From positions 112,945,057 through 113,009,056 of the forward strand of contig JALGPY010000001.1 of NCBI GenBank assembly GCA_023055425.1: a stretch of 64,000 nt of DNA, read 5' to 3'. Positions 25,797-63,072 of this stretch are shown here, piece by piece. The number at the start of each line of letters is the position of its first letter. Within the stretch, counting starts at the first letter, position 1. The notes beneath the pieces were generated by a model. It was not told where the DNA came from. It saw only the letters and a program-made list of their open reading frames with translations, and searched no databases. The stretch comes from Linanthus parryae. Its lineage: Eukaryota; Streptophyta; Magnoliopsida; Ericales; Polemoniaceae. The position numbers were made by a program, and so were the translations under genes.

Positions 25797-26121
25797 ACAA
25801 CTCAAACAATTACATAAATATCAAAATAACTCATTTTTTTTTTGGTTTCCCAACCGGTTCTGTCCGGTCCGACCCGCGTCGCATGCCTGGATATGGCAGG
25901 TGTGTCTATCAGTGAGAATTTGTGTATACACAAGAACGCAAACCCGATACCTGCTTAAGCGGAACCAAGTTACTTACCACTTGGAACAACTCCCATTGAT
26001 ATTCACTTGCTTTTTTTTTTTAATACTTTAACAAAAGTGTCCTAGATTTCAGATGCAATATAACTAGCTAGAGTGCATCTTGCCAATGAGAGAACAGCAA
26101 CAGCGCCCACACCACACAAAC

Positions 26122-37747: not shown

Positions 37748-37998
37748 TTATTCTCATGTGTTTTTAAGAAGATATTAAGTTTAATGTACTAGCCCGAATT
37801 CAACCCGAACCCGAATTGATTTATACGAATTTGGGCTCGGACGGGTTGACAATGCTCTTAACTCGGGACGGGTTGGGCTTGGGCAGCCACGATAGAACTC
37901 GGGCTCGGGCTTGGACAGGAGTGCCAACCCGCCCAGCCCGCCCGAGTTGCAGTCCTAGTCGTACCAAGGAGAGAATCAATAAGAGCGCACACACAAAT

Positions 37999-39677
37999 AT
38001 GGAGTGCAATTGGTCTTTCTTGATCAACATTCTCTTATCAGCTCTTGCTCTACTAGCTCTTGGCTGGTGCTGGACCAAGGGAAAGAAAGATGGTGGTGCT
38101 ACAAAAAAGCGACCTCCTGGACCAGCAGGATGGCCCGTGGTTGGGAACATGTTTGATCTTGGAACTCTGCCACACCAAACCATGTACAAACTCGGGTTCA
38201 TACACGGACCAGTGCTTTGGCTCCGGCTCGGATCAGTTAACACCATGGTGGTTCAGTCAGCGAAGGCGGCAACGGATTTTTTCCAGAACCACGACCTCAA
38301 CTTTTCTGATCGAAAAGTGCCTGATGTGCTAACAGTCCTGGGGTACAGCGAAGGATCAATGGCCATAGGACGCTACGGAAAATACTGGCGTGAAATAAGG
38401 AAAGTCTGTTCCATGGAGTTTTTGAGTTCGAAAAGAATGGACCAATCAGCTATCCTGAGACGGAAATGCGTAGACAACATGACACGGTGGATTGAAGAAG
38501 ATACAACGGCGTCGCGTTCAAAAGGAGGGTTAGGTGATGTGGAGATTTGCAATTTCCTCTTCCTGGTGACTTTTAATGTTTTAGGCAATTTGATGCTGTC
38601 GAAAGACTTGTTAGAACCGCAATCTGAGAAAGCTAACAACTTCTATGATTCCATGGACAAGTACATGAAGTTGGTTGGGAAGGCAAATATCGCCGACTTC
38701 TTTCCTATTCTGAAACGCTTTGATCTGCTTGGGCTTAAAAGGGATATGTTCCGAGACATGGGACAGTGCTTAAACATTGTTGATGGCTTTATCCAGGAGA
38801 GAATTCAAGCAAAGCAGTCAGGAAAACACGCGGCGCAAAAAGATTTTTTGGACACTCTGTTGGAGTATGAAGGCGATGGAAAAGAATCGTCAAGCAAGCT
38901 TCCAGAAAGCAAAATCAAAATCATCGTACTGGTACACGCCTACACACATAATCATCAATCTCGATTCTTTTTGTTTGATATTGTTAATATTACAAGTAGT
39001 TTGTTTCCGAGGATCATAATGGAACATAAAAGATCTCACTAATCATCATACTGGTGTAACAGGAAATGTTTTTTGCGGGGGCGGAAACCACAAGCAGCAC
39101 CATGGAATGGTGCCTGGCAGAACTACTCCGAAATCCTGAAACAATGGTGAAGGTAAAAAAAGAGCTCGATCGAGTGATTGGACCCAACACCAAGGTTGAA
39201 GAGAGCGACATAGACAAGCTTCCATATCTTCAAGCGGTCGTGAAGGAAACTCTCCGGTTACATCCTCTTGTTCCTTTACTCCTCCCACGAAACTCAATGG
39301 AAGATGCCAACTACATGGGATACCATATCCCCAAAGACACACAAGTGTATGTGAACGCGTGGGCGATTGGAAGGGACCCGGAGGCTTGGAGTGATCCATT
39401 GTCATTCGTACCCGAAAGATTTTTGGATAAAAATATTGAATATAAAGGGCAAAACTTTGAGTTGATACCGTTTGGAGCTGGGAGAAGGATCTGCGTTGGG
39501 TATCCATTGGGGCACAGAGTTGCCCACTATGTTCTGGCTACACTGTTGCAGTCATTTGACTGGGAGCTTAGCGACCAAGTTACTCCGGAGACTATGGACA
39601 TGAATGAAAGGTTTGGAATAACTCTGCGCAAGCTAGTGCCCCTAAAAGTGATACCAACCAAACGTAAGATTGCTTGA
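37999..39677 (+). CDS. CYP76-type cytochrome P450, copy 2 (intact)
   Basis: Heme-thiolate monooxygenase of the plant A-type CYP71 clan, closest in remembered motifs to CYP76A. The family oxidises monoterpenoids and related small molecules at the ER surface using NADPH-P450 reductase (for example iridoid oxidase CYP76A26); the substrate here cannot be inferred. Exon 1 is 37999-38931, exon 2 is 39063-39677, with a 131-bp GT-AG phase-0 intron; the product is 515 residues, normal length. Seen: hydrophobic anchor at ~7-25, PPGP hinge 39-42, AGAETT ~315-320, KETLR ~372-376, PERF ~428-431, FGAGRRICVG ~448-457 with Cys455 as heme ligand. The frame is open a further 61 codons upstream into hAT sequence; the start matches copy 1. 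Its leader is split by transposons. Confidence 0.93.
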
Positions 39678-40195
39678 GAATAAAGGGACCGTGTGGTTCG
39701 TGTGCAAGTACCAATGCATCTTCGATTCAGTACCAAGTGTTTGTAATATGTTCATGTCTCAAATTATGAACAATGTAATTTATGTGAAAGTACCTATGTA
39801 TTTCTCATTCAGTGATTATGAAATGGAATTTAGAATAATTTCTTGAAGAATTGTTAGGGTCCATACTCAAAACTAATTTGTGGTGAAGGTAATAGTCATA
39901 TACAAAAGACTGTAGCCCCGGTGATGTAGTGAAAAGCATTGATTCTCAACTAGATGTAATTATAGAGAAGATGTTTATTGTTAAATTAGTCGTTCGCTCC
40001 TAAAAGACTTACTACTAGAATATATAGGTATAGTAATAAAGTGAAGATGTATAAAAGTTAGTTGACATGACTTTCTTAGGTTTAATTCGCGGACAACGGA
40101 TTTCAACAAGCTAAAGTAATTTCCAAATGATTTATCTCACAACAAACACCAAAAGATAATAGTAAAACCTTGAGTTGTATTCCATTACTCAGTGG
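39678..40195 (+). other. 3' region of P450 copy 2
   Basis: Non-coding. It is similar to 43488-44190 (for example GTGAAAGTACCTATGTATTTCT and TTCTCAACTAGATGTA) and partly to the 3' flank of copy 1. The similarity ends near 40190, where the Helitron-like insertion begins. Confidence 0.7.
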
Positions 40196-40277: not shown

Positions 40278-41171
40278 GAATTTTTTAATTAACTATCGTA
40301 AATATTTTGAAAAAATAAATAAATACATTATGAATTAATGTGATTCCGTGTATCATTTTCAAATGACGAAATCATAGAGATGCCATTTCCGAAATTAGCA
40401 TCTCATTTCAAATGGCGAAATCATAGTACCCAATACATTGAACTACATCATTGACAAATCCCACTGATTGTTAAAAATTGAAAAGTGTTTCCCTACTACA
40501 TCATTGACTGTTCATTTAGATTGTTACAAATTCAAAGGAATCAATTTACTATTTGAGAATGGGTTTTCCAACTTTGCCTGAGGAAATGCCACGTGGAATT
40601 TTTTAATTAACTATCGCAAATATTTTGTAAAAATAAATAAATACATTATGAATTAATGTGATTCCGTGTATCATTTTCAAATGACGAAATCATAGAGATG
40701 CCATTTCCGAAATTAGCATCTCATTTCAAATGGCGAAATCATAGTACCCAATACATTGAACTACATCATTGACAAATCCCACTGATTGTTAAAAATTGAA
40801 AAGTGTTTCCCTACTACATCATTGACTGTTCATTTAGATTGTTACAAATTCAAAGGAATCAATTTACTATTTGAGAATGGGTTTTCCAACTTTGCCTGAG
40901 GAAATGCCACGTGGAATTTTTTAATTAACTATCGCAAATATTTTGTAAAAATAAATAAATACATTATGAATTAATGTGATTCCGTGTATCATTTTCAAAT
41001 GACGAAATCATAGAGATGCCATTTCCGAAATTAGCATCTCATTTCAAATGGCGAAATCATAGTACCCAATACATTGAACTACATCATTGACAAATCCCAC
41101 TGATTGTAAAAATTGAAAAGTGTTTCCTTACTACATCATTGACTGTTCATTTAGATTGTTACAAATTCAAA
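40278..41171. repeat. 318-bp tandem repeat, 2.8 copies
   Basis: Units start at 40278, 40596 and 40914 (GAATTTTTTAATTAACTATCG) with exactly 318-bp spacing. Copies 2 and 3 are almost identical apart from a one-base gap and the truncated end near 41171. Within each unit a short phrase around CAAATG(A/G)CGAAATCATAG occurs twice. Confidence 0.93.
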
Positions 41172-41512
41172 TGACTCAATTATTTCAAAAAATAATCATA
41201 CCTTAACCTCGCTGATTTTTTTGGAAAATATCTATCAATTAAAAAATTCTCCTCTAACGATGCTAAAATCAATGAAATTCTCCTATATAAACCTCCCTAC
41301 ACGAACTTATAAACCTTATTTCTCTCTTGATCTATGTTCTTGCTTGCTCTGTCAGTATATCTTCGTCTTTTATTATGTTTGTATTAGAAAATTTACAATT
41401 AGATCACAAGTTATCACAAATGGAGGTTATATTCCCCTAAAAATGGAGGTTATGTAATGCTTTGCATACATATATACTATTGTAGTTTTTTAGTTTTGTA
41501 ATTGATAGCACA

Positions 41513-45650: not shown

Positions 45651-46803
45651 ATGTTCGAATCGATATTCGAGATCAAGAGTTTTACAGGAGGGAAGAACTT
45701 CAGTCTCTGGAAGTTAAAGATGGAGGCCTTGCTTAAATCGCATGGTTTTTTTGGCACCTTTGACCGAGGACAAAGAAGGCATAGAGCTAGTCTACCGTAG
45801 TTCAAGGTATTGGAGGAGAAGGTACACACAACCATTATGTTGTGCTTATCGGATGACGTGATCATCAAGATCCTAGATCAGAAGGAAGCAGCGAAGCTTT
45901 GGCTCAAGTTGGAGAGTCTCCGCATGACGAAGAGTCTCACTAGCAAGTTGATGATGAAGCAAATGCTCTTCACCCTGTGGATTCTCAAAGGTACGAATCT
46001 CAAGGACCATCTTGATCAATTGAATACAATTCTTTTAGATTAACATAATATTGGCGAGAAGGCGGATGATGAGGATGCCGCACTTTTGTTATTGATCTCG
46101 TTACCTTCATCATACAAGAAGTTTGTTCAGTCATTAATTATGAACAAGGATGACTTGTCCCTAGAGGAGGTCAAATCGGCTCTCCATGATAGGGAAGTGT
46201 GTCATAAGGGTGCATGCACAAGTACGGAGGACCATACTTCCGGTTTGATGGCAACCGGTGGAAGCAAGAAGGGTAAGAGAAACAAGAAGAAGGAGTTCTC
46301 GTGTCCTAAGTTACCGAAGGATGTACGTGCTTTGTGCAAGGAAAAGGGGGAATTGAAGAGGAACTTCCCAAAGCGAGGTCAACATGGAAAAAATGGCTCT
46401 GCAGCCGTGGTAGAGAAGGAGAATCCATCTAAAGATGATTTCGCTCTACTGACGGATGATGTCACGCATTCACCCGATGCATGGTTTCTTGAATCAAGGG
46501 CTTCTTATCATATATATTCTAACATGAAGCTATTTTCAAGCTACAACCGTGCAGAAGGAGGATCCGTTAATATGGAAAACGGAGCTGTTTGCAAGGTCAT
46601 AGGAAAAGGTTCCGTTAGATTCAAGACTGTGGATGTGAAGACATGCAAATTAAGGGAGGTGATACATGTACCACTTGTCACAAAAAAATCTGATTCCTTT
46701 GAGTCTACTTGACAGCAACAGTTTCAGTTTCAACGGTGAAGGCGGAGGATTATGCGTGTACAAGGAATTGGATGTGCTACTCAAGGATGGGACTTTGTAT
46801 GTG
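45651..46803 (+). pseudogene. Copia B gag and protease, interrupted
   Basis: ATG at 45651 opens a capsid-type region (..FTGGKNFSLWKLKMEALLKSHG.., ..AKLWLKLESLRMTKSLTSKLMMKQMLF.., ..LPSSYKKFVQSLI). Stops lie at 45798-45800 (TAG) and 46041-46043 (TAA), and a frame change sits in an A-run near 46682. The zinc knuckle near 46320-46370 has lost cysteines. The protease motif reads WFLESRASYH near 46483, so the catalytic aspartate is gone. It ends where the Tat element inserts; the reading frame resumes at 62448. Confidence 0.87.
46799..46803. repeat. Target duplication of the Tat insertion, left (diverged)
   Basis: ATGTG here versus ATGGC at 62448-62452, three of five bases equal. The copia reading frame continues across if one copy is ignored, which supports the insertion point despite the mismatch. 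Confidence 0.5.
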
Positions 46804-47431
46804 TGTGCACAAGAGATTCCGGCGGGGAGACCTCCGTGTACACCGTATGTAGAGGATCAGAGATAGCACATGAAGAGTTGGGTTGTGTGTAGGGAGAGAG
46901 TAAGGCAGTAGTAATGTCTGAGAGAGAGACAGAGGTTTGGCAGAGCTTCCGCGTATGGCTAGTGTGTTCTTCTTTGTATGGAAAGGTTAACGTCCTATAT
47001 ATAACGGAGAATGTGACCGTTGCAGTGTGGTTAATGCGCCCATCAATGGCGGCTTAATTAGCTTAACCACAACGGCACGTTCGTCCGCGTATATAGGGAC
47101 CGTTACAACACGTTATGCGCGAATACCGGAACCGTTATGGGGTTGACCGGGTTTGACCGGATTGACCGGGTTTATGGAGCTCGTGCCATAAATCTCTCAA
47201 AAGCAGTTACTAAAGGTCGCGCGCGGGCTTGGCTTGCACGCGACAGGACTTACTCTAGCCTCCAAACCACTAAGTCCCAACAAGTCCCGTGCAGTGGTAT
47301 GCGAGGGCTCTGTCTCGCAGCCCCCACATGGATCAGCGCGGCTGGTGATCCAGTGTGTGTGGAGCACAATATGGTGTGCTGGATGGTTGCCACGTGGCCA
47401 AGATCTGTCAGCTCAGAAAGCACTATCTACA
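46804..47431 (-). repeat. Tat 3' LTR
   Basis: TGTGCACAAG..ATCTACA on the plus strand. The other full copy is 61820-62447 and a partial third is 1-537. A TTGACCGG-type phrase is repeated near 47140-47170. Confidence 0.95.
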
Positions 47432-47447
47432 TTAGCCCCCTTTCTGC
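47432..47447 (-). other. Tat polypurine tract
   Basis: The minus strand reads CAGAAAGGGGGCTAA directly before the 3' LTR, as needed for plus-strand priming. Confidence 0.8.
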
Positions 47448-48173
47448 GCGTGAAGACTCATAGCTGGATAGACTTCCATGCGCGGAAATCAACATACGCG
47501 TCGCCGCCACGCACCAATTCAAATACGAGCAAATTCAGCCCCCGTGCGTGCCATTATGACCTAAAACCCCTAGAGTCGTGCCGTCTGGCCTTTAGGGTTT
47601 TAGGCGTGGCGTCAGCTTGTCCTGTGATTGCGCGATTCGACGGTGACGGTTGCGATTCGACTACTGAAAGGACGCAACCTTTCATTGTTTTGGATAAATA
47701 CTTTGTACTCTCCATTGTTGCAAAGCATCACTTCTTTCTCTTAAAGTGAATGATACCCGGAAGCCTTCGAGAGCAGATTCAGATAATCAATCACCAGTTC
47801 AGAAATGCAAATCGTCTTCTTCAACTGTCTGTATCCAAGCAGGCTTCACAGAAACAAGGTTGGCCTTGTTCAATTTCGATTTAAAATGCTAGTATATGCT
47901 TTGAACTGCGTTGGATCTGCAAACCCATTATCTGCTGAAAAACTTGTGAAGGGACTCACAATCTTGAACCCGATTTCGATTTAATCCCCCAATGATAAAG
48001 ACCTTGAATGTAGGGTTTTTGAAATCTTCTGATAATGCAAACAATTCCAACCCCTAATTTTCTGAAATTGATACCAGAAACTGTTCATCTTTCTTCCCAT
48101 AGATCTTGAATCTCGAAATTCAAACTGAAGTGTGGCATATTTCTCCCCCCTTTTTTCTTGATTTTCCGCAGGA
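47448..48173 (+). promoter_or_regulatory. Leader/promoter region of the antisense gene
   Basis: Non-coding. GATAAATA at about 47692 is a possible TATA element. TTTTTTCTTGATTTTCCGCAG ends three bases before the ATG at 48174 and looks like a 3' splice site, so a 5'-leader intron is likely (possible donor near 47860). Both are inference. Confidence 0.4.
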
Positions 48174-51100
48174 ATGGCAAAGACAAAAGGAACTAGACCC
48201 ACCAAGGAGGACAAAGAAATACCTGATCTTCCGCAAGCTCTATGGCGAAAAGCCCCCTATCAGGGTGGCAAAGACTTCTACCACGCGAGGGTTAAGGCAA
48301 AGAAACTGCCTGCTTCTGTCCCCAATGAGGGATTGCTAACATTAACTCCTCCAGTTAACTCAGCCTTGCTTGATTTGATTGGCTCCGAGGACGTGGTTCG
48401 ATTGGGAATCGAAAATGGATACTTCCCGTATGCTGCGATTTCCACCCAAGCTTTTGTCCAGAAATTGGACTACATGGATGAGTGGATTGACCACGTGTTG
48501 ACCAATCATGCTGCGACTCTTAATGAGGCCGGCGTATACTTCGCCGTTCGTGCTATGAAGGGTGCTGCCGTGAAGCTGGACCAGTCCATGCTTCTAAACC
48601 TTCTTTCCCGCTACTCACCTGCGACTCACACTTTTCACTTTGCTGAGTTCGAGGCTGCCCCCACACTCGAGGACGTGGACATGCTGTACGATCTGTCTCC
48701 CATGGGTGAGGTGGACCCTTTGAGTCCCTTGAGGACGGATGCGGAGATCGCTTTGTACACGCAGATGGAGGAGTGCCTATCAGAGGTAAAGAAAATCTCC
48801 ACCCGGTGGACCACTACCAAAGCCCTTCCTGACTGGCAACTGGTTGACACGTCTGCGAAGAATACTTGGAACAAATGGGTGCAGTACTTCTTCCGTGATT
48901 ACGCGAACACCAGCATCACCAAGAAACTTCTGAGTCATGACCCAGAGGCTAAGAACTACGTGGAGGGTAAAGGCTATCACTTGACCCTTTGTGATTTCCT
49001 TTGTGCTTGGCTGTCGAGGTACTTAATCGATGGTCACCCACACGATGGGGTCTTTTACCACGTTCTGCCGCTCGCTTTGAAACTGGCCCTTGGCCAAAAA
49101 GTCGCACTCGGACCCTTGGTCTTGGGCACGCTGTACTATAGGCTGGATCAGCTGGTTGTGGCCATGAAAGAATCGCGTGGCCGTCTCGACATACTGACTT
49201 TTGTTAATATTTCCTTCCTGACGATGTGGGTCTTCGAGCGATGGCCTTCCTATGCCCCAACTGCTTCTAAGCCCAACAAGTGGTGTCCCCCAGGCGCGAT
49301 GGAGGAGCGCAACAGCGGCAGAGCTGCAAGATGGTTTGGAACAAACAGTACCAAGTACGTCTGGAGTTTGATATGCGATAATCGGCGAGAGTTCATAGCC
49401 AGGCCCTATGCCATGCGTATTGAAAACGTGCGATGGTTTCCAAAGCTGTACCCTTCTAAGGGTGTTATCTTCTCGGAAGAGCTCCTCTTCGAAGATGGAG
49501 AGCATTTCCATGAGCGCTATCGCGAATTCTTTTGCTGGTGCCTGCGAGGTTCCCTTCCTGCTCTCGCAGAGCATATTCGTGAGCTCGCGCCGAGGTATGA
49601 GAGGATTACCGTGGATGTTGACCCCACTCGCGTTTCTCCCCAGTTCGGCTTTGATGCAGTGGCACCATCAATCTGGCCACAGTCTATTATCAGAGGCTGC
49701 TATAAACGCTTGTTGACAAAGGAGTGCAAGACAGTCTTCATGAGCAATCTTCCCTTTGAGCAACCTGCAGGCAACCGTGAAGGCGGTTGTTCCAAGAACT
49801 GGCTCACATACTGGAACGCTCAGCAGACGAGATTTGAGACGTAGTCGGCCCCCCAGCCAAGCAGAGCTCCTGTGATTAGAAGAAACTCTTTTCCGTTTCG
49901 CCCCAATTGCAGTCTGGACGAGTCTGAGTATGGTTGCTACTCATTACTGGATCATGAGAACCATTTGTGCCCTTCCATCATTCTAGATGAAAAGATCGCC
50001 GCAGTTAGGAAAGGCGACTCGCATGTCATCAGATACAGTGAGACTTTTGCTAAGGTAAGCAGCTTCTTTCGCATGCGCTAAGTTTTTTTTTCACTTTCGC
50101 ATATTGACAACCTCATTCTACACTGCTTGCTGTAGTGCCATGTGCGGAGGTTTGCATCTGGCGACCGTTCCAAGTCGTTGGTTAACACCATTGTTACCAC
50201 AAGAAGACAAGGACAGACGTTCCTGCTAGCTTCGAGGATGGACCCTGAGGTCGAAACCAGGATTCGCGAGGTCATGAATGCTTTTGCTGACTCGCTGATA
50301 GACAATGCTCCGGCCTTGTCTCCCCCTAGAGGCGATCCGTCTCCTCCAGCGGCTGCCGCGCCAAGAGCGAAAAGACCCAGACAAAGAGGAATTACAATTT
50401 CTTCCCCTAGAAGTGCTCCGTCTTCCCCTCCTGCGCGGTCCCTTTCTGCCAAGGACAAAGGCAAAGGTCGCATGCCCAGTAAAGCGCGGAAGGAGCTCGC
50501 AGTAGAGACCTTCGTTCCATTCGGCCATGAGGAAGAAGAGGAGAGGCAGGAGCCAAGAGAAGGAGATGAAGACGAAGAAAGAGCAAATGTGATACATGAG
50601 GAAGAATCAGGAGGTATCTCCATCGCGTTTCCCTTCTCATTATCGTAACTCTTTTGAAACTCGATCTTGAACCAATCGTTTCTTCACAGATGATGATGAT
50701 GATGAAACCATCAGTGGCCTTTTGGCCAAGAGGCAGAAGAGGGATGCTCATTCTGGCATTTCTGACGAACCCATAAGCGAGGACGTTCTCGCCGAGTCCA
50801 GGAAGACAGCCGCGGAAGCTGCTGAAAGGAGAAGGCAGCGAGAAGAGGAGGAGCTCGAGCGTGTGATGCAGCGGAGCCTCGAAGAGCAACATGTTGACGA
50901 CTTAGTGCGTCCAGCTGATGAGGAAGATGCGCTCCCCGAAGAGGTGGCTCCTCAAGCAGAAGAGGAGGATGCAGCTCCCGAAGAGGATGTGGCAGCCTCA
51001 GAGCAAGCCCAAGCGGACTTTGAAGAAATCGCAGGCGGCAATGAAGGTGAGATCTTTAATCTCGCAGTAACTTATCGAGACGTTATTGTTGGTGCATTAA

Positions 51101-52473
51101 AGCATGGTGTGTCAAAAGCTGACATTCGCCGTTGGCTAGTAGGCAAGTGCGGTGAACCCTCAGGTAATCACTTGAACGATATGCATAAACTAGGCTTTAG
51201 CAATTCAAAATAGAATCATGACTAGTTTCTTCGCGCCCCAGGTCACGCTCATCTTAAAGGCATGCTTAATGAGGACACATTAGTAGGGCAAGGCTCCACG
51301 TCCTTAGTGTATGACGAGGATACTGCAATCCCACCTTCGCGTGGAGGTGCTTGCTCTTAGCTTAGCAAAGATAATAAAATATCAGAGGATACAAGTTACC
51401 TCATACTATCGCATCTTGTATCGCAGGCAATGCTGATGAACCCATGTTGGAGCAAAGGAGCCAACCTTCTGCATCCTATGTCCCGGTTCCGAGTTCTCAT
51501 ACCGAGAAGCCCGTCGCAACTGCTGAATATGCAGAAGAGCCTTTTGAGGACATCATCGAACTTTCTGATGATGTCGAGGCTGACACTGTGCTAATGGAGG
51601 AAGATGCCCATGCTGGTACTGAGGAAATAAGAACAAGTACTGTTGATGCTACCGCATCTGAAAGTGTCCCTCGCCAAGCAACTTCGGCTGCCACTACGTC
51701 TCCAGCGACGACTGAGTCGGCGGCACCTCTTCCTGCGTGGAGCTTTTGGGGCTCGCAGGTCGGGTCTGCAATCGCACCTGGTGCGGCTTATACTCTTCCT
51801 CCTAATTATGAGGAGTTAGAGCTCGCAGCTGACAGGAGGGCTATAGAACGAGGGCAATCTTCAACCACCCCAGCAATGCGCATTCCTTCTCTTCATGAGA
51901 TCCTTGAAGGAACTGGTATGTCATGGTTTGCTATTTGCATTTCGCATTGTTCATTTGCGAGTTTGATAGTGTAACTTGGCTTTAACATTTCCTCAGGTTT
52001 GAAGCAAGCCGATGTGGACTGGCTAGTTCGGATGCGTCTCACCTATCCCCAGTCATTCGCGAGATCTCTGGAGATAGGGCCCTTTGACAGGAGGTTGTTT
52101 CTTTCCGAAGCCATATGCATTTTGGAACAGCTGTCCGCGGCCACACCTGCGACCATTTCTCCTCAGAGTGCCGAATTGCTTTTTGGCATGTGCCAAAATC
52201 TTCTCGCCAAAGTTCAAGGCAGGCTGGGCTTCAAGCTTCTCGTGAAGAGAGTTACTCTGATTCGCGCGGCCGTAACTCTGGAACGCGACCACCAAAACCT
52301 CGCAGCTGAAAAGAAAAAGGTGGAGCAGCAAAAGAAAAAAATTTGAAGAGGCTATGAAGCTCTATCGTGAGATGAATGCTAGGTGCGAGCAGTTGAAGCA
52401 GGAAGTGGAGCAGGTGGAGAATCTGAGCCGTCAGTTCACCCCTCATGACTCCTTGATCAAGGGTTTACTTTGA
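48174..52473 (+). CDS. Antisense gene of the Tat element: plant-mobile-domain-like protein, six exons
   Basis: My exon model: 48174-50054, 50136-50613, 50690-51046, 51242-51346, 51427-51915, 51997-52473. All introns are GT-AG (76-195 bp), phases 0,1,1,1,1; the total is about 1,261 residues. Exon 1 resembles the plant mobile domain of transposon-derived proteins (..FLCAWLSRYLID..VFYHVLPLALKLALGQKVALGPLVLGTLYYRLDQL.. near 49000-49160). Exons 2-5 encode acidic, low-complexity, proline- and glutamate-rich sequence with a basic KRPRQR patch. Exon 6 ends in a probable coiled coil (..LAAEKKKVEQQKKK..). Two lesions: an in-frame TAG at 49842-49844, and a frame change in an A-run at about 52332-52340. 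It lies opposite to the element's own genes. Function unknown; the domain is also found in host regulators such as MAIL1/MAIN. Confidence 0.72.
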
Positions 52474-53700
52474 TTTTTTGAATTTGAAAAGTAGCAAATA
52501 GCAGAAACATTAATGTAATGTTGCTAGGGTTTCTCCCCCTTTTTTTCTTCAAAAGAATCGAAGTGCCCGTTTTGCCCTTTCCGGGATTTGCTAGAATATT
52601 TATGTGCATATCAATTCATGACATCAGCAATTGATATTCTGCCTTGATTTTCGCGCTAATTTCTCATTAGATAAGCACGCTTTCCTTGGGCAGTCCATCC
52701 GAATCATGACCATCCGTCATTAATTAGGATACGCAACTGAATCGTCGTAGCCTTTAGTAGGGTAATTGATTGTTACCGATTTTCAAGGCGTAAGTGATTG
52801 ATGCTTACCCTCTTTTCAAATTCTGCTGACTCATCTTGACAACTGAAGAGTCTCCACAAGGTCTATATAAACCCTGCCTTATGCCATTTGGGTTCCTCAT
52901 AAAAAAAAATGTGCTTTGCCGTGAGTTCTTACGACTGCTGGCTTCAACGCTTGTTTTTCGTTGATTCATGGCAATTCCAAGTTTTGAAACCTGAGTTTGC
53001 GCTTTGTGCTATAGAAATAGCTTCCAAGATCCGCTTCATAAGGCTTATTGATCTTTATAACCATCATAAAGCAGATGGAGATAATACCTTATGTTTGTTC
53101 GAAGAATTTTCTTCGTCTATTATGCTTGCAGGTCATGTTTCCGGCCGCCTCCCGGCGAGCTGCAGCGCCGTAGTGACCTTGCTACCGACTCGTAATGAAC
53201 GGCGGGATTCTCCTCCAGCATGCCCGGAGGAGAATTTCTTGCCTCCTCGTTCTTGGACTCAGGATGGCGAGCCAATGCCCTTGTCTATCTGGACAAGGAG
53301 CCCAGTACCCGAGGAATGACTGCTCCCCTGTTTTGCACGACTGTATACGCCGGAACAGGTGGTTCCTCTGGTACATATCTTGATCAGACAGAGGCCTTGT
53401 CAGATCCTGGGTTCTTGGGCGGAGCGCCACCCAGATCTTGCTGCTTAGGGAGGTAGCGAATGGCGAGTTGATCTCTTCGCAGAAGCATCCTACTTGCTAC
53501 AGATCTTTGGCCGCAGATCTGCGTATCGCACAGCCGGTGTTAGGACCGTTAGGTTCATCCCTTTTCGGTTAGGATTCCCTCGATGTGTAACTTCTTGCTT
53601 GTAAGTTACCTTTTTCATTGTAAGCCATGTTGGCTGCGTAATTAGATTCGAGCTTTTTTGCTTGTAAGCTGTTATCTAGAAAGATAAATTGTAAGTCCTT
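52474..53700 (+). other. Tat region with a possible second antisense ORF
   Basis: CTATATAAACC at 52862-52872 resembles a TATA box and is followed by a 136-codon frame at 52909-53319. Another frame, 53220-53456 (..FLDSGWRANALVYLDKEPSTRGMTAPLFCTTVYAGTGG..), has a coding-like composition. A CTTGCAG at 53127-53133 could be a splice acceptor. I do not recognise the product and cannot show that these frames are expressed. Confidence 0.3.
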
Positions 53701-53879
53701 TTGACTCATAATGATAAATTGCTTTGTATGATTTGCTGTTTTGTTACAACAAATTACAATTTCGCACGCGTGTTGGCGGATTTTGCCTTATGTAGTGCTA
53801 TATGCACACTTTGTATTCGCTATCTGTCGCATAGATTCGCAGATATGTTCTTAGATCGTTCGAGATCGTGTTCGCGCAG

Positions 53880-54505
53880 CTTTGCTATCTTGGCAGATAG
53901 GCTTGTGATTTTGCCCCAGATTAAAATGCAAGTGCTATCGCATCAGATAGGCTTTTGTAGATCACCTAAGATCATTTTGCATGATGTCGCTATCACAATA
54001 GACAGACTTAAGAACGAATTTTAAATCGCATTTGTATAACGCTGCTATCACGGCAGATAGGCTTGAAAGATCATTTAAGATCACGTTCGCATATGTTGCT
54101 ATCGTGGTAGATAGGCTTTAGAAGATCAATTAAGATCATTTTTCGCATGAGCTGCTATCGTGACAGATAGGCTTTAGAAGATCGATTAAGATCGCATTTG
54201 CATAGATTGCTATCATGACATATAGGCTTTAGAAGATCAATTAAGATCGTACTCGCATAGGCTGCTATCATGGAAGATAGGCTTAGAAGATCAACTAAGA
54301 TCGCATTTTCATAGGCTGCTATCGTGACAGATAGGCTTTAGAAGATCAATTAAGATCGTACTCGCATAGGCTACTATCGTGGCAGATAGGCTTAGAAGAT
54401 CACTTAAGATCGCATTCGCATAGATTGCTATAGTGGCAGATAGGCTTAGAAGATCATTTGAGATCACATTTGAATAAGTTGCTATTGCGGCGGATAGGCT
54501 ATTGC
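53880..54505. repeat. ~55-bp tandem repeats in the Tat 3' region
   Basis: Roughly eleven units of the form GCTGCTATCGTGGCAGATAGG, CTTTAGAAGATCA, TTAAGATCGCA, TTCGCATAG, diverged by 10-25%. The location between integrase and 3' LTR is where Tat/Ogre elements are known to carry variable tandem arrays that can seed satellite DNA. Confidence 0.88.
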
Positions 54506-54559
54506 TAACAGTAATAACAAACTAAATGAAGCAATATATACAGCTAGAAGTATGAAGTT

Positions 54560-54637
54560 CTTCTCATTTGGGAGAAGCCTTTTATTATAGTGCTCTCATA
54601 TGGGAGAGATGAGCTTACAACTCTCTCATATGGGAGA
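54560..54637. repeat. Three short hairpins CTCTCATATGGGAGAG
   Basis: Near-perfect 16-bp inverted repeats at 54560-54575, 54593-54608 and 54622-54637. On the minus strand they lie 70-150 nt after the integrase stop, in the 3' untranslated part of the pol transcript. Confidence 0.75.
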
Positions 54638-54708
54638 GAAGATTGTGCGAATCATAGCTATACAGGGAATAAGGCAACGTTGTAATAAAACGCATAAAAT
54701 GAGAGAAG

Positions 54709-55650
54709 TCAAGGATAGTACTTCTTAATCCAGCGCATGTTGACTGAGCTTGGGGTTGAGGTCGTTCCGTGCAACCTCCGTATGCTGCAGTAGCCACTGT
54801 CAAAGACTTCTGTGACTTCGAAAGGCCCCTCCCAATTGGCAGCGAACTTTGGGTGAGCCGCCTCTCGCATGCAATGGTCAGATGCGCGCAGGACCAAATC
54901 TCCAACTGCGAAATCTCTTCGCTGGACCGTTTTATTGTACGCACGAGCAATCCTTTCTTGATACCGCTTGTTGGTCCTTTTAGCTTGCTCTCGCTTTTCC
55001 TCTAGCAAGACTAAGTCATGATCGCGTTGATTGTCGTACAATGCGTGGAAGGCCAATCTCGCCGAATTAACTCTCACCTCCGCAGGTACCACGGCCTCAG
55101 CCCCGTAACATAGGAGGAAGGGTGAGACACCTGTGGGTGTCCTTGGAGAAGTCCGGTAAGCCCACAGGGCTATGCTTAGAGAATCAGCCCACTTCTTGTG
55201 ATCATCTGCGACCATCTTGCTCAAGATCCTCAACAGCGTTTTGTTGGTCGCTTCGGCTTGCCCGTTCCCTTTCGGATAGTAAGGGGTGGAACATATCTGT
55301 CTGATATTGTACTCTGCTAGCTTCGCAGCCACCTGGCGATTAAAAAAAGGAGTACCATTATCTGAAAGGATGGTGTTGGGAATTCCGAACCTGCATATGA
55401 TGTTTTCTTGGATGAAATTGACCACAGCTAGCGCATTTGCCGTCTTCATTGGTATCGCTTCCACCCATTTGGTGAACAGCTCAGTTGCGGTGAGAATAAA
55501 ATGATTCCCATGCGAAGTTGGTCGGATGGGACCAATGAAATCCAACGCCCATGTGTGAAATGGCCATGGCGTTCCCAATGCATGTAGATCTACAGCAGGT
55601 GCGTGCACTTTCCTTGTATCAGTGCTGCAGCTGTTGACATGTCTGGCCAA
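54709..55650 (-). pseudogene. Tat integrase
   Basis: Catalytic core with WALDFIGPI, LSDNGTPF and the glutamate of NGQAEATNK, then a C-terminal ..WEGPFEVTEVFDSGYCSIRRL module. It catalyses strand transfer of element cDNA. The frame is open for 313 residues but differs from the frame of RT/RNase H, with the change near 55605-55620. The N-terminal HHCC zinc finger is incomplete: the second Cys pair expected before HAPAVDLHALG is missing, which suggests a small deletion as well. Confidence 0.92.
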
Positions 55651-56440
55651 TGAATGCCATATCTCTGAGCCTTCCGATAGATTGACACCTCACTTTCTCC
55701 GCAAGCATGTTGGTGAATCTTCTCTAACAGCAGCTGTCCCTCTTGCTCGGAGACGCATCGCATGAGTATTCCGCCAGGGCCCTTGTAGTAAAGGGTGTTG
55801 TCATGTATGCAATACCCCTTTGTGAGTGCCCAGCTTTCGCTGCTTGTGCCTTCTGCGATGGCTCGTAAGATTGCTTTTCTCCAGTCTGCATCATCCATGT
55901 GTTCATCGTCGCACGCGTCTTCTGTCAACGCCGACGATGTTCGCACTTCGATCGAGATTTTTGCGGGGCATTTGTCTGTACTAACTTTGGATCCCAAAGT
56001 GGCCAAAGCATCTGCATGCCTGTTGTCTGCTCGGGGCTTGTTCTCGTACCTAACGTCACAGAATTGCTGTACCAGCTTTTGTACCAAAGTCCGGTAGGAC
56101 AGAAGATTCATCTCCTTCAAACCGTACTCGCCTGCGGCCTGCTTGACAATTAGCTTGGAATCCCCCATGACCGTCAGGTTGCTTACTTCCAAAGCCTTCG
56201 CTGCACGCAGCCCCGCTATGAGGGCTTCATATTCTGCCTCGTTGTTGGTGACTGCGAAGTCGAGCTTTGCGGACATCTGTATGACCTCCCCATCTGGCTT
56301 AGTCAAGACTATCCCAATGCCTCCACATTTCCTTGTTGACGAACCGTCGAAATGGAGTGTCCAATAGGGTACATCGACTGCGTATATTTCAGGTCCCTCG
56401 AATTCTTCTTCGATCACGGGCTCGTGGCTGTTATCGGGGA
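55651..56440 (-). pseudogene. Tat archaeal-type RNase H and linker
   Basis: A second RNase H domain: LHFDGSSTRKCGGIGIVL, NNEAEYEALIAGLRAA, VMGDSKLIVKQ and ADNRHADALATL supply the D-E-D-D residues. This extra domain, acquired besides the Ty3-type RNase H, defines the Tat clade. It is in frame with the RT upstream (frame 55590-57776) and followed by the degenerate zinc region of integrase. Confidence 0.9.
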
Positions 56441-57776
56441 ACTGTGCCAACAGGTCCGCCATCGCCTGCGACTTGATCGCTCGCGGTCGCACGCATGTGA
56501 TATCGTATTGAGAGATGGTCATATACCATTTCGCCAATCTTCCCCCAGGAGTGGTGTGAGTCAGCAGATATCGTATGGGATCACTTTTTGTGACCACCAC
56601 CACTTTGTGCGACGCAAAGTAGTGTCTCAACTTCTCTATCACGAAGAACAGGGCAAGGCAATGACGCTCGATGTCAGTGTACCTTGATTCGGCGGGCTGC
56701 ACGATGCGAGAGATGTAGTAGATGGGCCTTTCTTGGCCCTCGTACTCCTGAGCCAAGAGTGCTCCTATGGACTTCCTTGTTGACGTCAGATACAACAGAA
56801 GTGGTGATCCGAATTGAGGTGCGATCATTATCTTTGAAGACGTCAGCAGCTCCTTCAGCTTCCCGAACGCAGCTTCGTGCTCCGGATTCCAGCTGTATAT
56901 GGCATCTTTCTTGAGAAGGGCACTAAAACAGCAGGTGATTTCGGCAATCGCTGGGATGAATCTCCGCAGATATGATAGCTTTCCCAAAAATGTCTGCAAG
57001 GTACTTTGGTTATGTGGCGGCATCATGCCAGTGATGGCTGATACTTTCGCAGGATCAGGCTCGATTCCTTGGCGATGCACTACGCATCCCAAGAACTTCC
57101 CTGATGTTACCCCGAACACGCACTTCATGGGATTCATCTTCAGTTGAAAGCGTTTGCATCTATTGAATACTTTCCGTAAATCCGCCAGGTGATCTGCTTC
57201 CTGCTTGGATTTAACCACCAGGTCGTCCACATAAAATTCCACTTCCTTGTGCATCATGTCGTGGAACAGGGCCATCATGGCCCGCTGATAGGTTGCACCT
57301 GCGTTTTTGAGACCGAATGGCATCACTGTGTAGTTGAATACTCCCACTGGAGTGATAAATGCAGTTTTCCGCGCATCTTCAGGGTCCATCTTGATCTGGT
57401 TGTACCCGCTGAAGCCGTCCATGAAACTGAACATGCGATGACCCGCTGTCGAATCAATAAGCAGATCAATGTTGGGGAGCGGAAAATCATCTTTTGGGCA
57501 GAAACGATTGAGATCCCGGAAATCCACGCAGATGCGAAGTTGTCCGTTCTTCTTTACCACTGGCACAATGTTGGCTAGCCATGTGGGATGATGATTCGGC
57601 TCAATGAACTTGGCATCCAGAAGTTTGACAATCTCCTGTTTGATCTTCACGTTAAGCTCCAGCCTGAAGCTTCTTGTGCTCTGCTTTACCGGCTTAGACC
57701 CCGGAATGATGTCTAAACGGTGCATAGTGATACTTGTGTCCAGAACGGGCATCTCATCATACTCCCTTGCGAACAC
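56441..57776 (-). pseudogene. Tat reverse transcriptase and Ty3-type RNase H
   Basis: RT motifs in order: ..VPVVKKNGQLRICVDFRDLNRFCPKDDFPLP, FMDGFSGYNQIKMDPEDARKTAF, MPFGLKNAGATYQRAM and the catalytic YVDDLVV at about 57216-57236. The downstream Ty3-type RNase H (..YLTSTRKSIGALLAQ.., ..DIERHCLALFFVIEKLRHY..) has lost its canonical acidic residues, as is common in Tat elements, where the second RNase H takes over. The frame is open throughout. Confidence 0.93.
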
Positions 57777-58826
57777 GTCCTTGTATTCATTCAGGAGTTG
57801 TAGCAGTCCTTTCTACTCTTCGCTTGTGAGGTCCGCACTTAGAAAAACTGGCCTTTTCTTTTCTTCATTCGGGCTTAGGAATACCTCCTTTAGCTCTTAC
57901 TTTTGTGGTCTGGGTTTGTCTTCCATGCATTCGGGTGCTTCTTTGAGCTTTTCGTCTGGAGTGCTCTGCATTGGTTTTTCCGTTACCGCAACCTGCTCGA
58001 TTTGGTTGATTTGCTCAGGGATATCCCCATGCCCGCGTGAGGACACCCCCGCGCACCTTCATATGCGATAGCACTTCTTCCAGTTGGCGCAGAAACTCTC
58101 TATCTCCTTGCCTTCAGGGTCATGCTTTGCTATTCTATTCAGAGTATACACGTTCTTTCGCTGGTAGGCGATCCGCGGCGCCTCTTCCCACGTGGGCGGC
58201 TTTCCCTTGGCATCCTCCCTGGTCACCATCACTCCCGCAGGTGACTGATCCTTGATATCTTCCCATAGGGGTAAAGGAGTAGGGTTGAATGGTCCCGGTG
58301 TTTGCTCATCCGCCATCTCGGTAAACCACACCGCCTCGCTGAGGTGTGCTTCATCCATGTTGAATGGATTCGTCGAAGCCGGTATCTCGACTATTCTGTC
58401 GTTCCAAATAGCTTTCATCACTTGGTGAGCTGTTGAAGGGACAGCATCAAAGCGATGAATCCATGCTCGACCTATGATCATGTGATACGTAGTATTCGCA
58501 TCTATGACATAGAACTTCGCTGAGCACTTGATTTTGCCGATCTGGACGCCAAGGAGGATCCATCCTATCGTCATTCTGGAGTCACTTCTGAATCCCATCA
58601 ACGGGGATGGAAGTTTGACAATCTTGTACTCGGGGATCCCTGCTAGCTTCAGGGTGTGGAGCGAAACGACGTTAACCGCTGCTCCTCCGTCGACGAACGC
58701 TCTTTTTAACTCGACGCCATTGATGATGGCCGTCACATACAGAGGCCTCTGGTGGATCGCATCTGTCTTTTTGTCGCTGGCGGAAAAGGTCATAATCTTT
58801 TCTGTAGAGCGAGACGCCCTAATGAA
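57724..58826 (-). repeat. Second (left) copy of the duplicated protease-linker segment
   Basis: About 1.1 kb homologous to 58831-59935, in direct orientation. A 340-bp sample differs at about 25 positions (~7%). It encodes a protease with the VDGGAAVN motif near 58676-58698, a TGA at 58059-58061, and then the linker to RT with two further in-frame stops. The two LTRs differ by only ~1.6%, so the duplication is older than this insertion. Confidence 0.88.
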
Positions 58827-58830
58827 TTTG

Positions 58831-61803
58831 CATAGTGATACTTGTGTCCAGACCAGGCATCTCATCATACTCCCATGCGAACACATCTTTGTATCTAGTG
58901 AGGAGCTGTAGCAGTCCTTTCTCCTCTTCGCTTGTGAGGTCCGCACTTAGAAAGACTGGCCTTCTCTTTTCTTCGTTTGGGCTTAGGAATACCTCCTTTA
59001 GCTCTTGCTTTTGCGGTCTGGGTTTGTCTTCCATGCATTCGGGTGCTTCCTTGAGCTTCTCGTTTGGAGTGCTCTGCATTGGTTTTTCTGTTACCATAAA
59101 CTGCTCGATTTGGTTGATTTGCTCAGGGATATCCCCATGCCCGTGTGAGGACATCCCCGCGCACCTTCATATGCGATAGCATTTCTTCCCGTTGGCGTAG
59201 AAACTCTCTATCTCCTTGCCTTCGGGGTCATGCTTTGCTATTCTCTTCAAAGTATACACGTTCTTTCGCTGGTAGGCGATCTGTGTCACCTCTTCCCGCG
59301 TGTGCAGCTTTTCTTTGGCATCTTCCCGTGTCACCATCACTCCCGCAGGTGACTGATCCTTGATATCTTCCCATAGGGGTAAAGGAGTAGGGTTGAATGG
59401 TCCCGGTGTTTGCTCGTCCGCCATCTCGGTGAACCACACCGCCTCGCTGAGATGTGCTTCATCCAGGTTGAATGGATTTGTTGAGGCCGGTATCTCGACT
59501 ATTCTGTCGTTCCAGATAGCTTTCATGACTTGGTGAGCTGTTGAAGGAACCGCGTCAAAGCGATGAATCCAGGCTCGACCTATGATCATGTGATACGTAG
59601 TATTCGCATCTATGACATAGAACTTCGCTGAGCACTTGATTTTGCCGATCTAGACGCCCAGGCGGATCCATCCTATCGTCATTTTGGAGTCGCTTCCAAA
59701 TCCCATCAGCGGAGATGGACGCCTGACAATCTTGTACTCGGGGATCCCTGCTAGCTTCAGTGTGTGGAGCGAAACGACGTTGACCGCTGCTCCCCCATCG
59801 ACGAATGCTCTTTTGAACTCGACACCATTGATGATGGTCGTCACATACAGAGGCCTCTGGTGGCTCGCATCTGTCCTTTTGTCGCTGGCGGAAAAGGTCA
59901 TAATCTTTTCTGTAGGGCGAGATGCCCGGATGACTTTCCCATTGGAGACTACAAGATCCTCCTCGTAGTCCTCTGCTATCCTCAAGATTGCTTTCGTCAT
60001 TTCTGTCCGGCATTTTTCTGAGAAGTTCATAGTGTCGAAGAATCTGCTAAAACCGTGCGACCCCTTCATCCGGTCGGCACGTTCGTCCTCCATGTCTATG
60101 CTGTAGTCCTCATCATCATGGACTTCGGCAATGATGGGTAGACCATCCTCTGCGACCTCTTCCAGATCCACAATCGAGATCATGGCGATCTCTTTACCTT
60201 TCGAGTCTTGCTCCACATGGGCAGGAAGTGGATTGTTGCGCACATCCTTCCTGTGATCGCTGACGATCAGCTCGCCGTTCTTCATCTTTTGGCTAAATAC
60301 GATCCTGAGCTTCTTACAGTCCGCTGTGGGATGCATGACCTTGCCGTGGTACTCGCACCACTTCGGGTCTCTCACCATCTCCTTGGAGGGTGTCTTCTCA
60401 AGCGGCGGTAGGACACCGTCCTTGCGCCACTGTCTGCAGAGGTCGCTTGCTTCTTCCACCGAACATGGCAGAGGTGGTGCGTCGAAGTTCACAATCTTCG
60501 CCTGCTTCTGGGGTGAAACTGTATTGAGCTCGGCTTCGCGTCCCCTCTTGTAGCTGAATCTCCCGATCTTGTAGGTAGTACCGCTCGAGGATCGCTCTGG
60601 AGCGTTTTTCTTTTTCTGCCTCTCCACTATAGGCTCGATGTTCTTCGTGCATTCAATTATCTTTGAAAACGTAGGCGTTTGCAGGTTGATGAGCATACCT
60701 TTGTATTCATCTCGCATGCACTGCAGGCATATCTCTACGAGCCGACTTTCGAGCATCGGATCTTTGCATTCCAAGGACTTCGCCCTGAACTTCTTGATGA
60801 AAGTTATCCCGTCCTCCTCGCGCTTCTGATACATCTGCGAGAGGTGGATCGTTGTAACCTTTTCTTCCATCTGGAAGAACTTGGTGTAGAACTTTTGGAC
60901 CATGTCGTCCCAAGTCTTCACGGATCCGGCCTCCAACGTTCAGTACCACTTGTACGCTACATTCCTCAAGGATTTTGGGAACTCTCGCATCAGCAGTTTG
61001 GGATCGGCTCCATACGACCCCATGACATCGATGAAACGCATGACATGTTCATGAGCGTTTCCGTTGACATCTTCGAACTTGTCCCATTTAGGAGCCTTGT
61101 ACCCCACCGGGTTAGGCATGAGATAGATCTCTCGCGGGATAGGTGGATCGTTGTCTAGCTTCGGGATGATGGTATCCGCGAATGATTGGTGAGCATAAAT
61201 AGTGTCCATGCGCTTCTGCAAAGACGTTATACATTCTAGAATGCTTCCCTCGGTAACAGGAGGAGGGGTTGCCGCAGGTGGAGGCGACACGTATGCCGCC
61301 GGAGGGTTGGGGACATACTGGCCGTTCACATTGCCCCAGATTGCCGTTGGAGGAGGCAAGGGATACTGCGAAGCCGGGTTAGGTACCAGAGCCGGAGGCT
61401 GAGGAGTATGAGCAGTGAGAGGCAACATTTGAGTTGTTGACCCTTGAATTGAAGGTAGCTGCGTAGTCGCCGGTGGAGTCTGCAGATTAGGGTTGGGAGG
61501 TGTGGTTGACACTCCCAGTCCTGGAGCGGTAGGGGTTCCTCCTCCCGGAGAGACAGTGGTGGCTGGTGAAGGGTTTGGCGCAAGAGTGCCCAGGACGGCC
61601 ATGATCCTTTCTAGCTGCGCAGATTGAGCTTTGAGAGCTTTTCCCTGACTTTGGATGGTAGCATCCAAGGTCTCTAGCGTCGGGGCGTCACCGGTGGCCA
61701 TAGGAGTGCGGCGGGCCTCCTCTCCTGAGGCGGCTTCGGTGGAAGGCGATCTGTTACTGACATCATCCTCCTGAGACATGGTTGCTTTTGCTGGTAGGTT
61801 CAC
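58831..61803 (-). pseudogene. Tat gag-protease with first protease-linker copy
   Basis: ATG near 61780-61803. An N-terminal proline-rich region is followed by the Retrotrans_gag capsid (..HEHVMRFIDVMGSYGADPKLLMREFPKSLRNVAYKWY.. to ..FYTKFFQMEEKVTTIHLSQMYQKREEDGITFIKKFRAKSLEC), a CEYHG..H..ADCKKL zinc-binding-like motif near 60320-60360, and a retropepsin with FVDGGAAVN near 59784-59810. In-frame stops: TGA at 60940-60942, TAG at 59650-59652 and TGA at 59167-59169 before the linker. The frame then changes at the duplication junction near 58830. The protein assembles particles and processes the polyprotein. Confidence 0.9.
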
Positions 61804-61819
61804 GTCGGGTTCACCAAAA
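61798..61819 (-). other. Tat primer binding site
   Basis: The minus strand reads TTTTGGTGAACCCGACGTG directly after the 5' LTR. The TGGTGAACCC start has the right position and form for a tRNA-primed site; I cannot name the tRNA with confidence. Confidence 0.7.
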
Positions 61820-62447
61820 TGTGCACAAGAGATTCCGGCGGGGAGACCTCCGTGTACACCGTATGTAGAGGATCAGAGATAGCACAGGAAGAGTTGGGTT
61901 GTGTGTAGGGAGAGAGTAAGGCAGTAGTAATGTCTGAGAGAGAGACAGAGGTTTGGCAGAGCTTCCGCGTATAGCTAGTGTGTTCTTCTTTGTATGGAAA
62001 GGTTAACGTCCTATATATAACGGAGAATGTGACCGTTGCAGTGTGGTTAATGCGCCCATCAATGGCGGCTTAATTATCTTAACCACAACCGCACATTCGT
62101 CCGCGTATATAGGGACCGTTACAGCACGTTATGCGCGAATACCGGAACCGTTATGGGGTTGACCAGGTTTGACCGGATCGACCGGGTTTATGGAGCTCGT
62201 TCCATAAATCTCTCAAAAGCAGTTACTAAAGGTCGCGCGCGGGCTTGGCTCGCACGCGACAGGACTTACTCTAGCCTCCAAACCACTAAGTCCCTACAAG
62301 TCCCGTGCAGTGGTATGCGAGGGCTCTGTCTCGCAGCCCCCACATGGATCAGCGCGGCTGGTGATCCAGTGTGTGTGGAGCACAATATGGTGTGCTGGAT
62401 GGTTGCCACGTGGCCAAGATCTGTCAGCTCAGAAAGCACTATCTACA
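61820..62447 (-). repeat. Tat 5' LTR
   Basis: 628 bp, the same length as 46804-47431 and differing at about ten positions, indicating a fairly recent insertion. It is followed by ATGGC, the right copy of the target site. Confidence 0.95.
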
Positions 62448-63070
62448 ATGGCTACAAGGTTCGGATATCACATGGTCTGTCAGAGTTGCCTCAGCCGAGA
62501 TAACGAAAGCTAATCTAACAAAGCTGTGGCATATGAGGCTCGATCATATGAGTGAACGTGGAATGCAGGAACTTCACAAGAAGGGGTATCTCACTGGACA
62601 TGGGCCCAAGAACCTAGGGTTTTGTGAGCACTGCGTGTATGGGAAGCTACAGCATAGCAAATTCCCTAAAGTAGCTCGTAGAATGAAAAGTACTCTTGAT
62701 TACATCCATTCGGATTGCCGGGATCCATCTGGATTCGAGGCGATTGGCGGGTACATGTCTTTTCTGTGCATCATAGACGACTACTCAAGGATGACAAGGA
62801 TATTTGTGATGAAACACAAGAATGAAGCATTTGCAAGATTCAAGGAGTGGAAGGTCCTAGTAGAGAATCAGGTGGGAAATAAGGTGAAGAGACTGCGCAC
62901 GGACAACGACTTAAGGTTTTGTTCATCAGAGTTTGATGGATTCCGCAAAGATCATGGTATTTCTAGCCATCACACCGTTTGGCACACACGACAGCATAAT
63001 GGTGTAGTCAGGAATGAAGCAGACACTTTTGGCGAAAGCAAGGTGTATGCTTTTGAATGCAGGTCTTTCT
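62448..63070 (+). pseudogene. Copia B pre-integrase and integrase, resumed
   Basis: The GAG-pre-integrase zinc region (LWHMRLDHMSERGMQEL..CEHCVYGKLQHSKF, HHCC residues visible) is followed by the core with HSDCRDPS, FLCIIDDYSRMT and RTDNDLRF. The domain continues the frame left at 46803, so the Tat element landed in the protease-integrase linker. The region after 63000 is disturbed and the frame closes at 63070-63072. Confidence 0.9.
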
Positions 63071-63072
63071 AG

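Follow-up and report, generated by a model that had tools for sequence, protein, structure and literature searches.

Structure of the antisense gene

The window analysed here is a 64,000-nucleotide stretch of contig JALGPY010000001.1 of Linanthus parryae. It holds a Tat-type Ty3/gypsy long terminal repeat (LTR) retrotransposon on the minus strand at 46804–62447, recognized by its LTR pair and the order of its pol domains. On the plus strand of this host element, opposite to pol and between integrase and the 3' LTR, a gene was identified at 48174–52473. Its six exons are joined by five GT–AG introns of 81, 76, 78, 80, and 81 bp with phases 0, 1, 1, 1, and 1, respectively, and the joined exons encode a protein of about 1,300 residues. 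A sequence-only reading of the window had proposed this arrangement, and its coordinates were confirmed apart from one boundary of intron 3. As judged from sequence, it is highly probable that this is a spliced antisense protein gene that was under purifying selection while the element family spread.

Exon 1 (48174–50054) contains a plant mobile domain (PMD), exon 2 (50136–50613) carries basic stretches resembling nuclear localization signals (NLS), and exon 6 (51997–52473) has a lysine-rich end. Exon 3 (50690–51163), the probable exon 4 (51242–51346), and exon 5 (51427–51915) lie between them. Introns 1 to 5 are located at 50055–50135, 50614–50689, 51164–51241, 51347–51426, and 51916–51996, respectively, all on the plus strand. 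Both lesions listed by the sequence-only reading are real: an in-frame stop at 49842–49844 in exon 1 and a frameshift near 52335 in exon 6. Among the 20 copies described below, only the window copy had this stop and the sequence surrounding this frameshift.

Related copies were searched for across the 1.51-Gb assembly. The exon 6 protein search gave 9,713 first-look candidates, of which 150 were scored; one was the window itself, and the remaining 149 showed 89–96% identity. The exon 1–intron 1 junction, searched as a donor pattern (35 places, at most three mismatches), had 1,660 matches genome-wide and its reversed control had 0. The 20 copies ranked 2–21 by exon 6 similarity were taken; one with an internal deletion was dropped, and the other 19 were colinear over the gene with 89.8–94.9% identity to the window. 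The window together with these 19 made up the 20 copies used for the variant tests. For the middle part of the gene, 40 short pieces were added, 57 of 59 copies were usable, and 58 rows were compared with the window included.

The GT and AG dinucleotides were kept in 18 and 19 of the 20 copies for intron 1, in 20 and 19 for intron 4, and in all 20 for introns 2, 3, and 5. Across the 58 rows, GT and AG were kept in 57 and 58 for intron 3 and in 58 and 56 for intron 4, respectively. As a control, 12 of 28 GT or AG pairs inside introns were kept in at least 18 of the 20 copies. The ATG start was present in 20/20 copies. A splice-scored search of 49845–52700 was compared with 60 dinucleotide shuffles, and the open chain scored 1,120 against a shuffle maximum of 491. 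However, this search picked only two introns, one of them with a different acceptor, and the opposite strand scored 605, also above the shuffles. Therefore, the splice-scored test alone shows coding excess and not exact junctions, and the evidence for the exact junctions of this predicted gene comes from the family copies.

Selection on the spliced frame

A variant was counted as shared if two or more copies had it, and singletons were kept apart. The frequencies of shared variants at codon positions 1, 2, and 3 were 0.075, 0.046, and 0.297 in exon 1, 0.106, 0.101, and 0.252 in exon 2, 0.051, 0.070, and 0.247 in exon 3, 0.029, 0.114, and 0.171 in exon 4, 0.147, 0.104, and 0.288 in exon 5, and 0.054, 0, and 0.243 in exon 6, respectively. 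The corresponding values for introns 1 to 5 were 0.308, 0.250, 0.130, 0.163, and 0.333, with 0.123 in the 5' flank and 0.221 in the 3' flank. The third-position excess appeared only in the spliced frame, with p values, which treat sites as independent, of 1.5e-41, 3.1e-5, 1.7e-8, 0.11, 1.4e-5, and 2e-9 for exons 1 to 6, respectively (exon 6 over 51997–52330). It was significant in exons 1, 2, 3, 5, and 6 and in none of the five introns, where the lowest of 15 p values was 0.10. One of the three frames of the 3' flank gave 0.017, which was taken as chance. The selection that the sequence-only reading had suggested was thus borne out by a frame-specific excess of shared variants.

Nucleotide diversity (pi) at codon positions 1, 2, and 3 was 0.042, 0.033, and 0.111, respectively, compared with 0.110 in intron interiors and 0.020 at the GT/AG dinucleotides. 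Mean pairwise differences were 0.054–0.073 in exons and 0.124, 0.097, 0.055, 0.084, and 0.133 in introns 1 to 5. All three shared exon indels were multiples of three, while 8 of 10 shared intron indels and 15 of 19 singleton exon indels were not. The ratio of nonsynonymous to synonymous variants per site was 0.13 for shared variants and 0.45 for singletons, and nonsense changes made up 1 of 483 shared variants versus 30 of 866 singletons. By region, the shared ratio was 0.16 in the N-terminus, 0.07 in the PMD, 0.07 in the remaining exon 1, 0.27 in exon 2, 0.11 in exon 3, 0.30 in exons 4–5, and 0.04 in exon 6.

It has been suggested as possible for antisense open reading frame (ORF) transcripts that they act as RNA (PMC7264820), in which case the antisense RNA and not the protein would matter, as a regulatory or double-stranded RNA directed against the element. 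However, the constraint found here tracks codon positions and the spliced phase. We regard a role of the RNA in place of the protein as very unlikely, an additional RNA role being still compatible with the data.

The same variants bear on the length of intron 3. The sequence-only reading had given introns of 76–195 bp; the number of introns stood, but intron 3 is probably 78 bp and not 195 bp. The longer intron (51047–51241), perhaps a case of alternative splicing, would need a donor at 51047, where a donor-like GT scored 4.1 compared with 5.4 at 51164, and both donors keep phase 1. However, shared variants in 51047–51163 had frequencies of 0, 0.077, and 0.179 at codon positions 1, 2, and 3 (a small sample of 39 sites each). 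Because this segment varies like coding sequence, the donor at 51164 fits better, and a 195-bp intron is quite unlikely.

Probable retention of introns through the copying cycle

According to the sequence-only reading, introns antisense to the genomic RNA escape removal during copying. A pattern of joined exon 1 and exon 2 was found at 0 places genome-wide with at most three mismatches, whereas the unjoined junction was found 1,660 times. Each of the 20 copies, spliced in silico, would match the joined pattern without mismatch, a sensitivity that is overstated because the pattern was built from these same copies. The family apparently never lost intron 1. These counts support the escape of antisense introns from removal, as far as can be inferred from one junction.

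In the proposed mechanism, the LTR-driven genomic RNA would carry only the complement of the splice signals. Reverse transcription of this RNA would preserve the introns, and the spliced antisense mRNA would not seed new copies. The introns would survive copying because the splice signals are absent from the RNA strand that is copied.

Counter-evidence and alternative readings

Several observations weigh against a spliced antisense gene kept by selection. An unbroken spliced frame was found in 0/20 copies, each of which had one or more premature stops in that frame, so the evidence for selection rests on shared variants and not on intact copies. Raw exon indels relative to the window copy included 34 that were not multiples of three and 11 that were, although the frameshift of the window copy, counted anew in each comparison, accounts for as many as 19 of the 34. 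The difference in intron 3 (0.055) was no greater than in exons, while the other four introns exceeded the exons. The frame signal of exon 4 was not significant (p = 0.11 with 20 copies and 0.20 with 58 rows), and in 15/58 copies the reading frame would stay open through exon 4 if intron 3 were retained. The joined-exon test covers the exon 1–exon 2 junction only, and the copies were the best exon 6 matches, not a random sample. Finally, when the joined protein was compared with a protein database, none of the 7,987 candidates scored reached E ≤ 0.001. The expectations of the sequence-only reading for the family copies were therefore borne out in part: the splice dinucleotides were intact in 18–20 of 20 copies but a stop was present in all 20, and divergence was higher than in exons for four introns but not for intron 3.

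A lesion in each of the 20 copies could also mean that the gene is the relic of a captured host PMD gene, now dead weight, on which selection acted before capture. PMDs do occur in host-like ORFs of the same genome, with 24–26% identity to exon 1 at 7 of the 8 loci compared. However, the variants tested arose among element copies 90–95% identical to the window, after the family existed, and the constraint was seen in variants common to copies and much less in singletons. A relic is the explanation to which we give the least credence, and selection during the spread of the family is preferred.

Within the preferred gene model, the status of exon 4 was weighed separately. The region 51164–51426 could be one 263-bp intron with exon 4 noncoding: in addition to the p values above, nonsynonymous shared variants (18/79 sites) were hardly rarer than synonymous ones (7/26 sites), and exon 3 joins exon 5 in phase without exon 4. 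On the other hand, the intron 3 acceptor and the intron 4 donor were kept in 58/58 rows, and nonsense changes accounted for 0 of 75 variant alleles in exon 4. Furthermore, exon 4 had the same length in 56 of 57 other copies, whereas the introns on either side often varied by one base, intron 3 lacking one in 36 copies and intron 4 having an extra one in 17. A single 263-bp intron is unlikely, and it is probable, though not proven, from the sequence comparison that exon 4 is coding.

Predicted start of the gene and function of the protein

A candidate antisense promoter was located at 47640–47759 on the plus strand, one of the most strongly conserved segments of the interval that separates the 3' LTR from the ATG (pi 0.020–0.036 in the 20 copies). 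It contains a TATA-like motif at 47690–47702, GATAAATAC, present in 18/20 copies; the promoter role is presumed. The stretch at 48080–48159 had a pi of 0.025–0.032. A possible sixth intron, outside the earlier model, would lie in the leader at 47859–48171 on the plus strand. On its donor side AAG is followed by GT in 20/20 copies, and a pyrimidine-rich tract ends with AG at 48171, two bases before the ATG, in 20/20 (CAG in 19/20). Gap columns numbered 59 in this candidate leader intron versus 2 in 47640–47857. Transcription of the gene would start from a promoter of its own, situated between the 3' LTR and the ATG, and would be followed by splicing and translation.

The PMD (PF10536) in exon 1 scored 90.2 bits over residues 127–500, compared with a gathering cut-off of 34.9. 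In separate scans of the end of exon 1 and of exons 2, 3, 5, and 6, which did not include exon 4 on its own, no family exceeded its cut-off. Of the two profiles named by the sequence-only reading, the PMD was therefore found and Transposase_28 was not, in the exon pieces scanned. The NLS-like stretches, recognized by eye, were mostly kept among copies. A scan of viral contigs with exon 1 found one stretch that fit a pattern and no relative, and a search of PDB sequences with exon 1 gave five sequences with a best E of 0.081. An AlphaFold single-sequence model had a mean pLDDT of 36.1 and was not used.

The host-like PMD ORFs mentioned above align to exon 1 at approximately residues 97–521. In the genome search for PMDs, 117 of 11,793 candidates were scored. 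Dense clusters with many long open frames were seen at 126.33–127.71 Mb of C57 (more than 40 matches), 154.9–155.9 Mb of C46, and 29.19–29.88 Mb of C2, and these look like tandemly amplified host-like PMD genes.

Together with PP7L, the host PMD proteins MAIN and MAIL1 take part in the silencing of transposons and in gene expression (PMC7156037). We tentatively propose, with somewhat less than even confidence, that the antisense protein is a nuclear regulator of the PMD family acting for the element. The target of such a regulator might be PMD-dependent host silencing or the element's own LTR, and counteracting host silencing is a guess.

The host element and its classification

The 3' LTR (46804–47431) and the 5' LTR (61820–62447), both on the minus strand, are 628 bp each and 98.25% identical. 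With a substitution rate of 1.3e-8 per site and year, the insertion would be about 0.7 million years old. A tract resembling a polypurine tract, recognized by eye, adjoins the 3' LTR. No clean 5-bp target duplication was seen at the ends of the element, where the flanking bases agree at 3/5 positions. Coding pieces resembling Ty1/copia elements flank it at 45801–46712 and 62448–63755 (by eye, without a scan), and the element seems to be nested in an older one of the copia type. A tandem duplication of approximately 1.1 kb, 92% identical, was observed within the element between gag and reverse transcriptase (RT) at 57721–59937.

The domain scan identified RT, RNase H, a second RNase H, and integrase in ORFs at 54709–57812 on the minus strand. 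RVT_3, the second, archaeal-type RNase H, was located at 488–605 after RT/RNase H in the same ORF, and rve was found in the next ORF. A second RNase H between RNase H and integrase supports placing the element in the Tat clade, and this order is the arrangement described for Ogre and Retand (PMC6317226). An antisense ORF region between pol and the 3' LTR, together with tandem repeats between the antisense gene and pol at 53933–54500 (strand unassigned), agrees with Retand. However, Transposase_28 (PF04195), reported in an antisense ORF of 97% of Retand clusters (PMC11963269), had no match in the exon pieces scanned, which did not include exon 4 alone. The distance from pol to the 3' LTR, approximately 7.3 kb here (54709 to 47431), was above the 2,933–6,566 bp published for Retand (PMC11963269), while LTRs of 628 bp are outside the 1.9–6.5 kb given for Ogre (PMC6431247). 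The subclade within Tat is not settled: the LTR length points to Retand, the PMD mainly to Ogre, and the pol–3' LTR distance exceeds that of Retand.

An internally deleted copy of the same family, consisting of an LTR, approximately 340 bp of internal sequence, and an LTR, was observed at window positions 1–537 together with 5993–7057 of an adjoining stretch, with a 424-bp stretch of 98.6% identity on both sides. The LTR at 1–537 belongs to this deleted copy, which yielded no second gene.

Comparison with known systems

Published precedents exist for antisense ORFs, for PMDs in Tat elements, and for spliced antisense genes in retroviruses. Antisense ORFs were predicted by ORF Finder in all Retand clusters (PMC11963269), and an antisense promoter upstream of Grande gene23 and a nuclear protein have been reported in a review that calls for looking for antisense and spliced transcripts (PMC7264820). 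The gene described here resembles aORF-3R of Tat/Retand elements (Grande gene23, RIRE2, Retand, PvRetro13), being antisense, located between pol and the 3' LTR, and present in most copies (PMC7264820, PMC11963269, PMC4093653). It differs in its five introns, a comparison that leaves the intron content of Grande gene23 aside, and in carrying a PMD instead of Transposase_28. The word intron does not occur in the accessible text of PMC11963269, which used ORF Finder, or of PMC4093653, which used gene finders.

PMDs have been reported in 57% of Ogre elements, and extra ORFs with a PMD have been published for Tat-type elements, mainly Ogre (PMC6317226, PMC9289625); the present gene is likewise a PMD-carrying extra ORF of a Tat-type gypsy element. 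However, the LTRs are far shorter here than in Ogre, and the gene is antisense and spliced. As in Ogre and EVADE, which a 2025 review names as exceptions among plant LTR elements generally without introns (PMC12786077), spliceosomal introns occur in an LTR element, but there the introns belong to the sense RNA and are used for subgenomic expression, whereas the introns here are on the opposite strand. HBZ of HTLV-1 and APH-2 of HTLV-2, both deltaretroviruses, also combine a spliced antisense mRNA in an RNA-copied element with a nuclear regulator (PMC10186651), both being predictions in our case. The viral genes are driven by the 3' LTR, whereas the present gene has at least five introns and, within the element, a conserved block resembling a promoter; no homology is claimed. 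The protein shares the PMD with host MAIN and MAIL1 (PMC7156037) but has a long C-terminal extension and resides in a mobile element; the host-like PMD ORFs, at the identity given above, stand in for a direct comparison.

An antisense gene with several introns in an LTR retrotransposon was not encountered in the literature searched, which lacked most subscription journals, so that priority is not certain. Papers on bdelloid elements, giant transposons, Ectocarpus, and maize contained no antisense-intron case like the present one, and the expression of ORF3s in bdelloid elements relies on spliced messages.

Few introns are expected in elements copied through RNA, and a five-intron gene whose first junction occurs 1,660 times would show that an antisense orientation can shield introns. 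If this is true, the gene either entered the element as DNA or acquired its introns within it, and surveys by ORF finders that are blind to introns catch only pieces of such proteins. It is conceivable, though we would sooner bet against it, that Tat-type elements generally carry intron-bearing antisense genes, because that orientation lets a spliced gene pass the RNA cycle, and that the antisense ORFs surveyed are often exons of them. In the same conjecture, the PMD protein would be a nuclear regulator of counter-silencing or transcription that works against or replaces host MAIN/MAIL.

Neighbouring sequences

Outside the host element, two similar cytochrome P450-like genes were observed by eye at 26083–28055 and 37964–39684, with 85–88% DNA identity to each other. 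A 318-bp unit is repeated nearly three times at 40278–41181.

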